Assembly (NCBI RefSeq): GCF_025506355.1
Contig: NZ_JANZYP010000082.1
Span: 1 to 39,997, forward strand
Direction: 5' to 3'
From: Sphaerisporangium corydalis
Lineage (GTDB): Bacteria > Actinomycetota > Actinomycetes > Streptosporangiales > Streptosporangiaceae
Length of the DNA: 39,997 nucleotides
Below, in pieces: positions 20,418 through 25,511 of this stretch (the first letter of the stretch is position 1; each line of letters opens with the position of its first letter). The notes under the pieces were generated by a model. The model was given only the letters and a program-made list of their open reading frames with translations. It searched no databases and was not told where the DNA came from. A program made the translations under genes and the position numbers.

Positions 20418-20900
20418 ATGACGGTGACCAGCGACCGGCCGGCGGCCCGGGTGGTCGGCCTGGACGGGCACGGGCGGGTGCTGCTCCTGCACTGGCGGGA
20501 TCCGATCGCCGGCGTGGACTTCTGGGAGCCGCCGGGCGGCGGGATCGAGCCGGGAGAGACCCCGCTCGCGGCGGCGCGGCGCGAGCTGATGGAGGAGACC
20601 GGCCTCCCGGGGGACGCGGTGACCGACCGGTGGGTCCCGGTGCACCGCGACTTCCACTGGCTGGGCGTCCACTATGTGAAGGTCGAGCCGTTCTACCTCG
20701 CCCGCTTCGCCGGGACCCCCGGCGTCCTGCCCGTCGCGATGACCGGCGAGGAGGACGCCACCTACCTCGGCCACGGCTGGTTCTCCCCCGGCGAGCTGGC
20801 CTCCATCACGGTCGACCCCGCCACCATGGCCGAGGTGCTCACCCACCTTCTCGAAGCCGAGCGGTCGAACGGCCACAAGGCCGAGGGGCACGAGGGCTAG
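20418..20900 (+). CDS. Nudix hydrolase
   Basis: The 160-aa protein carries a complete Nudix box at residues 41-63 (G41-x5-E47-x7-R55-E-L-x-E-E60-x-G-L63) after the WEPPGGGIEPGE segment. It should hydrolyse a nucleoside diphosphate linked to another moiety, using Mg2+ or Mn2+; the substrate is not predictable. The ATG at 20418 follows GGAGAAG. It converges with the TPR protein gene with only 31 bases between stops. Confidence 0.93.
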   Translation: MTVTSDRPAARVVGLDGHGRVLLLHWRDPIAGVDFWEPPGGGIEPGETPLAAARRELMEETGLPGDAVTDRWVPVHRDFHWLGVHYVKVEPFYLARFAGTPGVLPVAMTGEEDATYLGHGWFSPGELASITVDPATMAEVLTHLLEAERSNGHKAEGHEG

Positions 20901-20931: not shown

Positions 20932-22956
20932 TCATGGCTCGTCCGCCATGTCCTGCAGCGCCTGAACGACGTCGGGATCGCCGGGGTCCAGGGCGTGGGC
21001 GCGGCGGAGGTCGTCCCGGGCCTCGCCGAGCCTGCCGAGGTCCCTGAGGGCGATCGCCCGGTTGAAGTACAGGACCGCGCTCTCGTCCAGCTCGATCGCC
21101 CGCGTCAGGTCCGCGACGGCGCCGAGCGGATCCCCCGTCTCGTACAGCAGGCTCGCGCGGCTCGCCCAGGCCGGCACCAGGCTCGGAGCGCCGGAGATCG
21201 CCACGTCGAACGCCGCCCTGGCCTCCTCGGCATGCCCCGCGGCGGCCTCGAGCTGGCCGAGCACGCACGAAAGGTGCGGGTTCGCGGGGGCCAGGGCCAG
21301 CCCCGCGTCCACGTCCGCCCGCGCCCGATCGTCCAGCCCGAACTGGACGAGCAGGCCCGCGCGGTTGATGTAGGCGTCCAGGTAGCCCGGGTCGAGCTCC
21401 ACCACGTGGTCCAGGTCGGCCATGGCGCCGTCGAGATCTCCCAAGGCGAGCAGGAGCTGGGCCCGGTTGTAGTAGCCCTCCGACAGCGGCGGGCTGAGGC
21501 GGATCGCGCTCTCGTAGTCGGCGAGCGCCTCCTCGGGCCGGCCCATCTGGAACAGCAGGTTGCCCCGGTCGAGGTAGTAGTCGGGGTAGGAGGGGTCCAT
21601 CGCGATGGCGGCGTCCAGGTCGGCCCGCGCCTCCTCGGGCAGGCCGATCAGCCCGAGGAGCTGGGCGCGGTTGGCGCGAAGGATCATGCGGTGGATGAGG
21701 TGCCGTTCGGGGAGCAGGTCGGAGTCGGCGAGCTCGATGGCCGACTGGACCAGGGACAGCGCCTGGTCGACGTGGCCGCCGCGCATCTCGATGAGCGCCT
21801 TGCCGTTGAGGTCGAAGCCCAGCTTGAAGGCGCGTACGGCCCGGTCGGGCAGCAGGTCCGAGATGGCGATGGCCTCGTTGATCCACCCCAGGGCCCGGCC
21901 GAGGTCGCGCCGGGCGGGGTCGGGATGGCGCGCGTCGAGCATGGCGGTCCCGTACGCGGCGGCGGAGTGGACCTCGGCGTCCAGGCTGAGGCGGCGGGCG
22001 CGTTCGTACAGCTCACGCGCCTCGTCCCTGCGGCCGAGCCCGGCCAGGGCGGTCGCCGTGGCCTGGGTGAGGTTCCACCACCGGCCGGCCGAGGGGGCGG
22101 CCAGCCGCAGGCCGCGCAGCCCGAGGTCGACGGCCGCCTCCAGGAACCCCTCCCGCATGCAGTGGTCGAGCGCGGCCCAGAGGGCCTCGACGCCCTGGCC
22201 CGAGGGGTCGCTGCCGTGCTCCCGGTGGTAGGGGATCGCGCCGTAGGCGAAAGAGGTGCCGCACTCCAGCTCGCCGGCCCGCCGGTCGTGCAGGCGGGCG
22301 CGTCGCTCGGAGGGCAGCGCGCGGTACGCGGCGACCGCCAGGGGATCGTCCAGGGTGCCGTCGGAGTCGATATAGGCCTCCGCGAGGCCTTCCGGATCCG
22401 CCGGAGCCGCTGATTCGGACTTTATGTAGTGGCCGGCGAATAATTCACCGGGCGCGTCACTGGAGCAGGCCACAATGGTCAGCAGCCCGGGGTCCAATCG
22501 GCGGGCGAGTGTGGCGATGAGCTCACGATCGGTCCCGTCGGCCTCGTGCACGTTGTCGATCACCAGAGCCTGGGGGGCCACCCCGCAGTCGCGGATGAAC
22601 TCGGTGATCCCGTTGGCGATCCGCAGGGTGCGTCCGGGAGCGGGCACGAGGATGCGTTCTTCCTCGGGAAGCCGCGCGGCGAGCTGCTCCCGCCGGGGCG
22701 GCACCCGCTCGCGAAGATCGGGTGCCGCCGCTCTGATCTCGATGTCGTGCTCCGCGACCACGTCAGGCAGGCGTTCCAGCGCCGCGGGCACCACCGCGCG
22801 CAGGAGGGACCCGCCGAAGGTGTACGGCCCCCGCAGGCGACGGTGGGCGTCGAAGACGGGGGCCGGCCACACGGGGAGACCCATGCCGGCGAGCGCGTTC
22901 AGGCGGTCCCCCGAACGCCCGCCCCAGAGCCAAAGGTGATCAGGGCACGGGGTCAC
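20932..22956 (-). CDS. Degenerate NTPase-like TPR protein, coupled to a 24-aa peptide gene
   Basis: A 674-aa protein in two parts. The N-terminal 170 residues look like a signalling-type NTPase: a segment RRLRGPYTFGGSLLRA (39-54) sits where a P-loop would be but has no GxxxxGK[S/T], and LVIDNVHEAD (131-140) resembles Walker B. From about 410 to 670 there are at least six tetratricopeptide repeats (for example RGNLLFQMGRPEEALADYESA), with more degenerate helical repeats before them. It is probably a soluble scaffold or peptide sensor. The GTG start overlaps the TGA of the peptide gene (GTGA), so translation is coupled. Function unknown. Confidence 0.8.
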   Translation of the reverse strand: MTPCPDHLWLWGGRSGDRLNALAGMGLPVWPAPVFDAHRRLRGPYTFGGSLLRAVVPAALERLPDVVAEHDIEIRAAAPDLRERVPPRREQLAARLPEEERILVPAPGRTLRIANGITEFIRDCGVAPQALVIDNVHEADGTDRELIATLARRLDPGLLTIVACSSDAPGELFAGHYIKSESAAPADPEGLAEAYIDSDGTLDDPLAVAAYRALPSERRARLHDRRAGELECGTSFAYGAIPYHREHGSDPSGQGVEALWAALDHCMREGFLEAAVDLGLRGLRLAAPSAGRWWNLTQATATALAGLGRRDEARELYERARRLSLDAEVHSAAAYGTAMLDARHPDPARRDLGRALGWINEAIAISDLLPDRAVRAFKLGFDLNGKALIEMRGGHVDQALSLVQSAIELADSDLLPERHLIHRMILRANRAQLLGLIGLPEEARADLDAAIAMDPSYPDYYLDRGNLLFQMGRPEEALADYESAIRLSPPLSEGYYNRAQLLLALGDLDGAMADLDHVVELDPGYLDAYINRAGLLVQFGLDDRARADVDAGLALAPANPHLSCVLGQLEAAAGHAEEARAAFDVAISGAPSLVPAWASRASLLYETGDPLGAVADLTRAIELDESAVLYFNRAIALRDLGRLGEARDDLRRAHALDPGDPDVVQALQDMADEP

Positions 22957-23027
22957 CCCTTGTGGATCGCGCTGGCCGTCCCGGTCAGGTGCACCATGCC
23001 AGGCTTGCGGACGATGATCTTCTTCAT
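22953..23027 (-). CDS. 24-aa peptide gene upstream of the TPR protein
   Basis: ATG at 23027, 24 codons, TGA at 22953-22955. The peptide begins MKKIIVRKPG, has a middle MVHLTGTASA and ends IHKG; it is basic, has no cysteine and no signal peptide. Evidence that it is translated: a consensus AGGAGG with 7-base spacing, the GTGA overlap with the TPR gene, and its own promoter-like sequence (23065-23092). It is too short for homology statistics. It could be a precursor peptide, an intracellular signal, a toxin or a leader peptide controlling the TPR gene. Confidence 0.7.
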   Translation of the reverse strand: MKKIIVRKPGMVHLTGTASAIHKG

Positions 23028-23064
23028 CGCTTGCCCTCCTCGGGTCTTCAGCTACAAAGACCTA

Positions 23065-23092
23065 ATTATTCGGACAAATCGACAATCCGCAA
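23065..23092 (-). promoter_or_regulatory. Probable promoter of the peptide-TPR operon
   Basis: TTGCGG (23087-23092), 16-base spacer and AATAAT (23065-23070) read on the minus strand, in an AT-rich island (about 23045-23145) that stands out from its surroundings. The predicted leader is about 30 bases. Confidence 0.5.
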
Positions 23093-23134: not shown

Positions 23135-23632
23135 CTAACGGGTGAGTTGCGATGAAGGCTGGCCTATCAGCTGCTTCTCTCCGTAAACTACGACAAGTCC
23201 TCCTCTCTCCTCTCTCCGTACTTCGCGCCAGCCGTACTTCCGGTACAGCTCCAGTGCGGCGCCCTGTCCGAGCGTGGTGTCGCCACGGAGCGCGCGATAT
23301 CCGAGTTTCGTCGCGGCCTCCTCAAGAGCGTCCAGGATCAGGGTGCCGAACCCCCTCCGCTGGAAGTCGGGATGAACACGCAGGCGGCACAGCTCCGCCG
23401 TGTCGTCGTCCATTCTCCGGAGCCCGCCCATGGCGATCACACCGGAATCGCCGACCTCGCCGACCAGGAACTCGCCCCGGTCGGCCAGATAGACCTGATT
23501 GATGCGCGGGATGTCGTCCTCGTAATAGACCCCGTCCCCTTCTGTGATTCCGACCTGTGCGAGGCACGTGCGGTGCAACTCCCAGACGGCTTTCTGATCT
23601 GACCACCGATACCGCCTGAGCAGCAGCGTCAT
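23135..23632 (-). CDS. GNAT family N-acetyltransferase
   Basis: The 165-aa protein has the standard GNAT order with the acetyl-CoA signature Q91-R-R-G94-F-G96 after LCRLRVHPDF. The substrate is unknown. The ATG at 23632 overlaps the TGA of the XRE-TPR gene (ATGA), so the two are translationally coupled and likely functionally linked. A longer opening to 23716 lies inside the regulator gene and is rejected. The peptide-TPR promoter follows about 45 bases after the stop. Confidence 0.92.
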   Translation of the reverse strand: MTLLLRRYRWSDQKAVWELHRTCLAQVGITEGDGVYYEDDIPRINQVYLADRGEFLVGEVGDSGVIAMGGLRRMDDDTAELCRLRVHPDFQRRGFGTLILDALEEAATKLGYRALRGDTTLGQGAALELYRKYGWREVRREERGGLVVVYGEKQLIGQPSSQLTR

Positions 23633-25188
23633 GCATCGCCCTCCGGCGCCGAGTTCTCCGGAGCCGGCGTGGCGATGAGCTCCATGTATTCCGGAAGTCC
23701 GGATATCTCTCCGCATTTAGCCCGGATCGCCTTGCCGAGGTCGACCGCCCGGCGGGTGATGATGTCGGTCCGGAAACCCGGGCCGACCCGTTTCACCGCC
23801 GCGCTGCCCATTCTCAGCGCCTCGGAGCCGTCACCTTCGAGCAGCCTGCACTGCGCCTGGTCGAACCGGATGAGGGTCTGGTCGAGCAGGTCGCCGTCGT
23901 ACTTCTCCAGCGCCTGCTCCAGGATCAGGTCGGCCTCGATCGTCTGGCCGAGCCGGGTGAGCGCGTCGCCCTGGTGGAAGTAGAGCTGGCGCTCGGTGTA
24001 GCCGAAGACCGTGTCCTCCTGCTGGGCGGGGCTCATCTGGGCGAACGCGGCCCGCGCCCGCGCCAGCGCCCGCTTGGCCTGGTCGACGACGTCCTTCTTT
24101 CCTCCTGAGTGGGCGAGCATGGACAACGCCCGCGCCTCCACCACCGGGGCCATGGCCTTGGCGGCGCACGGGGTCTGCCCGGCGAGGTCGCGGCTCTTCT
24201 TGGCGAGGTTCAGCGCTTCCCGGGGATCGCCGTAGAAGAGGGGGACGAGGGCCTCACGAGCCGTGACCCAGGCGCGCAGCGCCCGGTCCCCGGTCTCGTC
24301 GGCCGCCGTGCGTGACGTACGGAAGAACGCCCTGGCCATCCGCTGGTCACCGAGATCGATCATGATGATCCCGGCCAGGCCGGAGAGCCTGGCGGCCAGG
24401 GCGCAGAGCCGTTCCTGGAGATCGATGGGCTGGTGGTGCCCCATGGCCTGGCGGACCGTGCTGAACTCCAGGAGCACATCGCAGAGCTGCCGCATCGGCG
24501 GGGTGTTCATGTACTGCCGGCCGAAAGACGCCGCCGATTCCTCCCAGTGGTCCAGCATGGCCGGTGAAACGGTGGTCGACACGAGGGTCTCGTCCATGCG
24601 CCGGCGGATACTGTCGGCCGCGCCGAGCATCGACTCGTTCATCGGCACGGTCGTGCCGGCGATGAGTAGCAGCAGCGTTCTACGTAACACGTTCTCGTCC
24701 TCCTCACCCCCATCCGCAGAGGGGTCGCTGAGCGGCTTGATGAACAGCTCGCGCGAATCGGGGGGACTGTCGGGTTGGACCTCGCCGAGGCCGCCCCGGA
24801 CGACGCCCGGCATCCGGTGGCCGTGGCCACAGATGCACGGGCCGTCGTATCCGAGGGCGACCGGCTCTACCCGGTAGACGGAACAGAGGTAGTGGAGATA
24901 CTCCGGACCGGGGCGCTTCAGCCCGCTCTCGTAAGCGCTCAGAAGCGTTTCGCCGATTCCGGGCATCGGTTTACCGTCGCGTTCGAACAAGGCACGCACC
25001 TGTTCGATGACATCGGCAAGAGCGATGCCAAGCGCAAGGCGGTGGGATTTGATTCGTGTTGTCCCAAATTGGGGACCACACTCCTCAAAAACCTCCTCGG
25101 CGATTCGCGGCGCACTGCGCCCGACCGCCAGACCGCGCGCCCGGGTTCGCCGAGCCAACTCCGTTTCCTTGTGCTGTCTGCCGGACAT
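23629..25188 (-). CDS. XRE-type helix-turn-helix regulator with C-terminal TPR-like repeats
   Basis: A 519-aa protein. Residues about 45-114 form an XRE/Cro HTH of the actinomycete kind (IKSHRLALGIALADVIEQ, then LLSAYESGLKRPGPEYL as recognition part and YRVEPVALGYD). A hydrophobic stretch lies near 170-185, and from about 250 to 500 the sequence is made of helical pairs of TPR type. HTH plus TPR is the build of RRNPP peptide-responsive regulators, but also of many actinomycete orphans, so peptide sensing is only a possibility. The start is the ATG at 25188 with GAGGGG upstream. Divergent from a small gene across a palindrome it may bind. Confidence 0.88.
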   Translation of the reverse strand: MSGRQHKETELARRTRARGLAVGRSAPRIAEEVFEECGPQFGTTRIKSHRLALGIALADVIEQVRALFERDGKPMPGIGETLLSAYESGLKRPGPEYLHYLCSVYRVEPVALGYDGPCICGHGHRMPGVVRGGLGEVQPDSPPDSRELFIKPLSDPSADGGEEDENVLRRTLLLLIAGTTVPMNESMLGAADSIRRRMDETLVSTTVSPAMLDHWEESAASFGRQYMNTPPMRQLCDVLLEFSTVRQAMGHHQPIDLQERLCALAARLSGLAGIIMIDLGDQRMARAFFRTSRTAADETGDRALRAWVTAREALVPLFYGDPREALNLAKKSRDLAGQTPCAAKAMAPVVEARALSMLAHSGGKKDVVDQAKRALARARAAFAQMSPAQQEDTVFGYTERQLYFHQGDALTRLGQTIEADLILEQALEKYDGDLLDQTLIRFDQAQCRLLEGDGSEALRMGSAAVKRVGPGFRTDIITRRAVDLGKAIRAKCGEISGLPEYMELIATPAPENSAPEGDA

Positions 25189-25511
25189 ACCGGCCCCTCT
25201 CTTGTGGCCAGCCGCTCGTCCTGGTCTGCTATCCGACCGGTCCCACCTGCGCTGACGCAACACTGTCCGGGATACGCTGCGTCTATTGAGAATGATGGAC
25301 CAGTTATGACCAGGCGTGAAAGGACGATAGTCACTGCTGACATAGAATCGTCCCCCGCCGGGGACGTTCTTTCAACCCAGTTGAAATATCAGCCCACCTA
25401 CGCTGCGTCGGACCTTCGTTGACCCCATCGGCACCGGTGGGTCAGATTTGGCCAACCAGCCCCGATTCACCGGCATCATCGCCGTCGGGTCGGTCTAGAG
25501 GAAGGCTCGAA
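25189..25511. promoter_or_regulatory. Divergent control region of the XRE-TPR regulator
   Basis: No gene is supported here. The gap contains a 7-bp hairpin CGTCCCC / GGGGACG (25349-25366, loop CGCC) followed by TTCTTTC, a perfect palindrome TTTCAAC-CCA-GTTGAAA (25370-25386), and TAGAAT (25343-25348), a possible -10 for the rightward gene. The in-frame sequence from 25419 to 25511 is not protein-like. Confidence 0.5.
25370..25386. promoter_or_regulatory. 17-bp palindrome, candidate operator
   Basis: TTTCAAC and GTTGAAA, 7-bp arms with a 3-base spacer, between divergent regulator and small gene. It fits autoregulation by the adjacent XRE protein. Confidence 0.45.

Follow-up and report, generated by a model that had tools for sequence, protein, structure and literature searches.

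A 39,997-nt stretch of the soil actinomycete Sphaerisporangium corydalis (contig NZ_JANZYP010000082.1, positions 1 to 39,997 of the forward strand; hereafter the window) carries on its minus strand a gene for a 24-residue peptide (MKKIIVRKPGMVHLTGTASAIHKG) that overlaps the gene of a 674-residue tetratricopeptide repeat (TPR) protein. We consider the chances about even that this pair is a streamlined, vertically inherited descendant of a RiPP-like cassette, in which a precursor of the type of ribosomally synthesized and post-translationally modified peptides (RiPPs) has become a partner of the TPR protein and is not exported. The peptide family, the selection acting on it, its genetic linkage, the make-up of the related cassettes and the nesting of the TPR proteins that lack a protease gene all emerge directly from computation. 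The elements of the pair are the following:

22953..23027, minus strand: peptide gene, 24 residues plus TGA (ATG at 23027-23025, stop at 22955-22953), with a leader of the type MKKIxVRKPGxxxLxG and the tail SAIHKG
23035..23040, minus strand: Shine-Dalgarno sequence AGGAGG, 7 nt 5' of the ATG, read from the sequence and aligned with relatives
23065..23092, minus strand: promoter-like pair TTGCGG (23092-23087), N16, AATAAT (23070-23065), recognised by eye
22953..22956, minus strand: GTGA overlap, in which the peptide TGA overlaps the TPR start GTG (22956-22954)
20932..22956, minus strand: 674-residue pseudo-NTPase/TPR protein (open reading frame, Pfam scan, structure model)
22816..22851, minus strand: DAHRRLRGPYT region, residues 36-47, presumed place of the P-loop, near-invariant in the alignment of relatives
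22537..22566, minus strand: Walker-B-like stretch, residues 131-140, within LVIDNVHEAD and inside a weak AAA_16 match
20941..22086, minus strand: TPR superhelix, residues ~291-672 (Pfam scan and structure model)

The initial annotation had described the 24-codon gene, its AGGAGG, a promoter-like element, the TGA/GTG overlap and the 674-residue reading frame, and all of them are present, on the minus strand. When 18 upstream regions were aligned, visual inspection showed a TTG...AATA-like pair in the majority, L086 being one of the exceptions.

The peptide is conserved and under purifying selection

A contig scan using the TPR protein as query yielded 45 loci (the TPR-relative set), and a related short open reading frame (ORF) precedes the TPR gene in 44 of them, L023 being the sole locus without one. 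In a second set (L077-L105) the same was found at 28 of 29 loci (27 by script), with L098 as the exception; the L092 copy lies beyond the edge of that locus and was read from L115. Conservation of the short ORF upstream of TPR homologues, proposed as a check in the initial annotation, was thereby confirmed. The accompanying question whether it always overlaps the TPR start has a positive answer for solo copies, those without a protease gene (GTGA in 47 of 50, CTGA in two and ATGA in one), but a negative one for other relatives, where peptide and TPR genes are separated by 70-170 nt without overlap or by 1.3-1.8 kb with a protease gene in between.

Selection was measured over codons 2-22 of the 50 solo copies, which comprise 46 distinct DNA sequences and 31 distinct peptides. 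Synonymous differences per site (pS) reached 0.51 and non-synonymous ones (pN) 0.158, giving a pN/pS of 0.31 in frame; the same columns read in frames +1 and +2 gave pS values of 0.17 and 0.21, pN values of 0.26 and 0.25 and ratios above 1 in both, pairs with stops being skipped. Selection on the peptide, which had also been suggested as a check, is therefore borne out, and neither of the two outcomes that the initial annotation had named as refuting occurred. Residues P9 and G16 vary hardly or not at all, yet each is encoded by four codons. The solo tail is fixed (IHKG, in one copy LHKG) and free of Cys; the final codons CAC AAG GGG barely vary, and the overlap may constrain these too. The codon pattern together with the linkage described below rules out a chance ORF. 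Paralogues of the peptide were sought in its own genome, where the window copy (E 8.2e-11) was the only significant match, the next having an E-value of 2.5. No Pfam or NCBIfam model matched the peptide; a search for named families with five peptides, two cassette protease proteins and relatives gave none in NCBIfam and a weak M50 match in Pfam, PHROGs and PADLOC lying outside its scope.

Peptide and TPR genes are linked across the family

Among 150 genomes of the family, searched at thresholds of E≤0.05 for the peptide and E≤1e-60 for the TPR protein, the TPR protein was detected in 71 and the peptide in 64, none of which lacks the TPR protein. The other seven of the 71 (G021, G023, G035, G335, G368, G391 and G401), which gave no peptide match, carry a divergent or cassette-type peptide at the loci examined. 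Most peptide matches (73 of 83) lie at most 1.5 kb before a TPR match on the same strand. The remaining ten include L167, where the TPR gene runs off the contig end, L166, with a contig end 400 bases away, and eight copies without a nearby TPR gene. The NsdA-type regulator of the window also precedes four of these lone peptides (L165, L168, L169, L170), and at three of the four a NUDIX or purU-like gene comes next, as in the window neighbourhood. At L172 and L173 the gene before the lone peptide is FtsY-like, and L023 and L045 carry a TPR gene at that place. The pN/pS of lone peptides was 0.35 (4 sequences) and 0.41 (6 sequences), values that mostly reflect history before the loss and are a weak test of selection after it; the C-termini of L168 and L174 are altered. 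A divergent TPR subgroup (~40% identity; L182, L183, L184) has a different adjacent peptide, MRKMTVRRK...SGARRLWIEWCW.

Related peptides head three-gene cassettes

The leader MKKIxVRKxGxVRLT also heads cassettes in Streptomycetaceae, Ktedonobacter and others. At 19 of 19 close-relative loci the order is leader peptide, then a modelled fusion of a RiPP recognition element (RRE) to a site-2 protease (RRE-S2P), then the TPR gene; distant RRE-S2P matches (E 1e-23 to 1e-57) were left out of this count. The fusion protein has both the HExxH motif and the S2P fold of a site-2 (M50) protease, and the precursor gene adjoins an RRE-containing protein, as RiPP precursors do. Cassette peptide cores are rich in Cys and Tyr, and in the peptide alignment the solo His (H22) stands at the place of a cassette Tyr. 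Two tandem, near-identical peptide genes at L041 (4076 and 4238) differ only in their C-terminal tail, and the cassette peptide of L057/L116 (G049) has an unusual core, ACYCYGCCCCGG.

Within the TPR-relative set, RRE-S2P matches were absent except at L022, L041, L043, L044 and L046. No RRE protein lies beside the window peptide. A search for a whole cassette in the same genome returned only a divergent RRE-S2P relative on another contig (35% over residues 25-242), where no peptide was found by regular expression. This relative, L047 (G000:C76:25139), is split over two overlapping frames of 217 and 200 residues, through a frameshift or a sequencing error.

The TPR proteins that lack a protease gene, 57 of the 73 placed in a tree and the window protein among them, group as one clade (support 100) adjoining the 16 cassette TPR proteins. 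Of these 57, 48 are accompanied by HKG-ending peptides, seven by KH/RH-type peptides and two by none. With midpoint rooting, this single clade indicates that the protease gene was lost once and that the overlap evolved afterwards in the HKG group.

Beyond RRE-S2P and TPR genes, no cassette neighbour recurs broadly. Nine neighbours scanned at three loci comprised an FMN oxidoreductase, an AspRS-type protein, SARP, ROK, ACC subunits, LuxR, a beta-propeller and one unmatched protein. Seven loci (L108-L112, L115, L118) have a divergently transcribed SARP-type regulator next to the peptide gene or the RRE-S2P gene. Near the distant RRE-S2P genes L117-L119 no TPR relative was found by clustering in 18-kb or 14-kb neighbourhoods. 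Short, ribosome binding site-preceded ORFs of the KIxIRRxE type (e.g. MKITIRRLEKIETTAACPIHGDC and MKKLVVRKLEPIKTSANADCVPAAA) lie 5' of distant RRE-S2P genes at L058, L063, L069, L070, L124 and L131, and perhaps constitute a second, larger peptide family.

The TPR protein has a Walker-B-like stretch but no P-loop

TPR proteins are of a kind that often holds peptides. The TPR array of the 674-residue protein matches Pfam TPR_2 with an E-value of 1.7e-33, and the structure model has a mean pLDDT of 94.6 and a pTM of 0.91. The AAA_16 match (residues 82-157) is weak, at E 2.5e-4 and 22.0 bits against a curated cut-off of 32.6. A Walker-B-like LVIDNVHEAD without a P-loop, followed by TPRs, had been noted in the initial annotation and is upheld: the protein lacks the combination of P-loop and Walker B that marks a STAND nucleoside triphosphatase (NTPase), and DAHRRLRGPYT occupies the expected P-loop place, where H38, R39, R40, G43, P44, Y45 and T46 are kept in at least 90% of 82 relatives. 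The Pfam scan revealed no effector domain, and VIA listed no clear match for the N-terminal 240 residues, a part not folded or searched alone. Relatives are 569-770 residues long. The Nonomuraea proteins (L024-L040) are shorter (~569 residues), with ~100 residues absent between the NTPase-like part and the TPRs, and a DMT-like transporter gene (named by eye) lies upstream of them.

Genomic surroundings of the pair

Two genes on the same strand precede the pair, and a third lies beyond the TPR gene:

23135..23716, minus strand: GNAT acetyltransferase, with a relative at the same place in 21 of the 45 TPR-relative loci
23629..25263, minus strand: NsdA-family TPR-like regulator, a conserved upstream neighbour (NF053720, 132.3 bits against a cut-off of 75), clustering with genes from 36 of the 45 loci
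20418..20900, plus strand: NUDIX-like gene (named by eye), clustering with genes of 14 of the 45 loci

No export or processing gene was seen beside the window peptide, including any M50 gene, and inspection found no signal peptide in its 24 residues, although export of the SHP type may occur.

Comparison with known systems

RRE-site-2 proteases are already known from daptides, RiPPs whose intramembrane site-2 protease, MpaP, carries a fused RRE at its N-terminus (PMC10036551). Daptides share this architecture and short actinobacterial precursors with the cassettes only, not with the window pair. Their clusters ubiquitously encode a DUF-RRE, an oxidative decarboxylase, an aminotransferase and a methyltransferase, and their C-terminal Thr is modified (PMC10036551). 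They differ from the cassettes in all class-defining enzymes, none of whose families was seen in the cassette neighbours inspected, of which a minority was scanned, and in the leader; a TPR partner is not named for them in the text available (PMC10036551). Epipeptides (EpeP) and pearlins (TglG, TmoG) likewise rely on an M50 membrane protease to process a short precursor (PMC10885120), but by eye the cassette neighbourhoods retrieved contain no radical SAM gene or PEARL, and M50 genes are lacking from the window pair altogether. An S2P-like protease also serves TMcins, RRE and TPR going unmentioned in the text available (PMC13252029), as does TPR in the available text of two RRE surveys (PMC12710340, PMC7470986).

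The RRNPP systems, including Rap-Phr (PMC10075063) and the leaderless LCP-RopB (PMC10518010), also place a peptide gene beside that of a protein with a TPR superhelix. Their receptors span 250-500 residues and their propeptides are mostly SEC-exported (PMC10075063), whereas the window protein has 674 residues (relatives 569-770) and a pseudo-NTPase N-terminus, its peptide has no signal peptide and a RiPP-type leader, and the family occurs in Actinomycetota and Chloroflexota. STAND ATPases with a TPR sensor (PMC6468293) resemble the window protein in having an NTPase-like N-terminus followed by TPRs; the latter differs in lacking a P-loop, in showing no effector domain in the Pfam scan and in its co-encoded peptide. 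As the initial annotation had supposed, no described system with this layout was found in Pfam, NCBIfam or the literature searched, from which subscription papers were largely missing, and the leader strings had no match in that literature.

Interpretation and alternatives

The initial annotation had proposed the peptide as a ligand or precursor for the TPR protein. This remains the best reading of a conserved pair under selection, and is refined here to a derivative of the three-gene cassette, whose ancestor would have comprised a short precursor, an RRE-site-2 protease and a TPR protein, the protease gene being absent from the window pair. An intracellular peptide partner is favoured because the leader is kept without an RRE, the tail has become fixed, the two genes are coupled and genes for export or processing are not found nearby. 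The peptide, translationally coupled to the TPR protein, would remain in the cytoplasm, given that it has no signal peptide and no export or processing gene alongside. There the TPR superhelix may bind it through the conserved leader and/or the IHKG tail, and we infer that it could set the state of the P-loop-less STAND-like protein, to which it would be a ligand or co-subunit that is small and genetically encoded. Several observations weigh against this interpretation. The TPR resemblance is generic; within ~6 kb of eight peptide copies (~12 kb examined) a TPR-family match (E≤1e-15) is lacking, though their genomes carry a TPR gene elsewhere; the TPR genes of L023 and L098 have no recognisable peptide; and the invariant HKG codons are partly tied to the overlap. 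Moreover, the linkage counts come from related genomes, which are not independent trials, and the TPR tree was built by a quick, midpoint-rooted method with long branches flagged.

Of the other explanations, it is possible, if rather doubtful, that the peptide is still a true RiPP. Enzymes encoded at other sites would then modify and/or cleave it, and the TPR protein would be a scaffold for biosynthesis, a chaperone or an immunity factor. The identity in leader type with the RRE-S2P cassettes, their Cys/Tyr-rich cores and the divergent RRE-S2P relatives in several related genomes as well as its own (there split over two frames) speak for this, but G010 keeps the pair without any RRE-S2P match, the solo tail is fixed rather than variable, and the cassette neighbourhoods share no modification enzyme family. 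We regard as improbable an RRNPP-like logic in which the peptide, carried or buffered by the TPR protein, signals to the neighbouring NsdA-family regulator, a helix-turn-helix/TPR-like protein: that regulator is widely kept upstream of the pair and still adjoins the peptide at four TPR-less sites, but cassettes and FtsY-side sites lack it next to the peptide, a secretion signal is absent and the synteny may be mere vertical inheritance.

Lone peptides are confined to genomes that have a TPR gene, a pattern as compatible with neutralisation as with action in trans. A basic toxic peptide held in check by the TPR protein, in the manner of a toxin-antitoxin pair, would agree with 0 of 150 genomes having a peptide without the TPR gene, and translational coupling would hold the ratio constant; the solo pair nevertheless occupies a conserved chromosomal site across the family and the whole peptide, leader included, is strongly conserved, which makes this explanation very improbable. 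The initial annotation had also offered an upstream ORF serving solely for translational coupling or attenuation of the TPR gene, as the frequent GTGA overlap might suggest. It is now largely refuted and scarcely credible, since eight peptides stand without a TPR gene within ~6 kb, four of them adjoining the window-type NsdA regulator; it also conflicts with the varied codons of P9 and G16 and with relatives that have no overlap or an intervening gene. Extending the favoured reading of an intracellular partner, we propose, with somewhat less than even confidence, that peptides with the leader MKKIxVRKxGxVRLT form an unrecognised family of Actinomycetota and Chloroflexota, that the RRE-protease-TPR cassettes are a new RiPP class, and that in one lineage the precursor became, for a STAND-like TPR protein without a P-loop, an unmodified intracellular cofactor that can work in trans.

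The peptide lies below the size of usual gene callers and is nonetheless strongly conserved in a family of antibiotic-producing bacteria. If the proposal is correct, the cassettes would add a RiPP-like class whose hallmarks are an RRE-site-2 protease and a TPR protein, and the window pair would be a worked case of a natural-product precursor that, having lost its processing enzyme, became part of a core-genome peptide-protein pair. The general question of what a RiPP leader does once its RRE is gone would thereby become testable.
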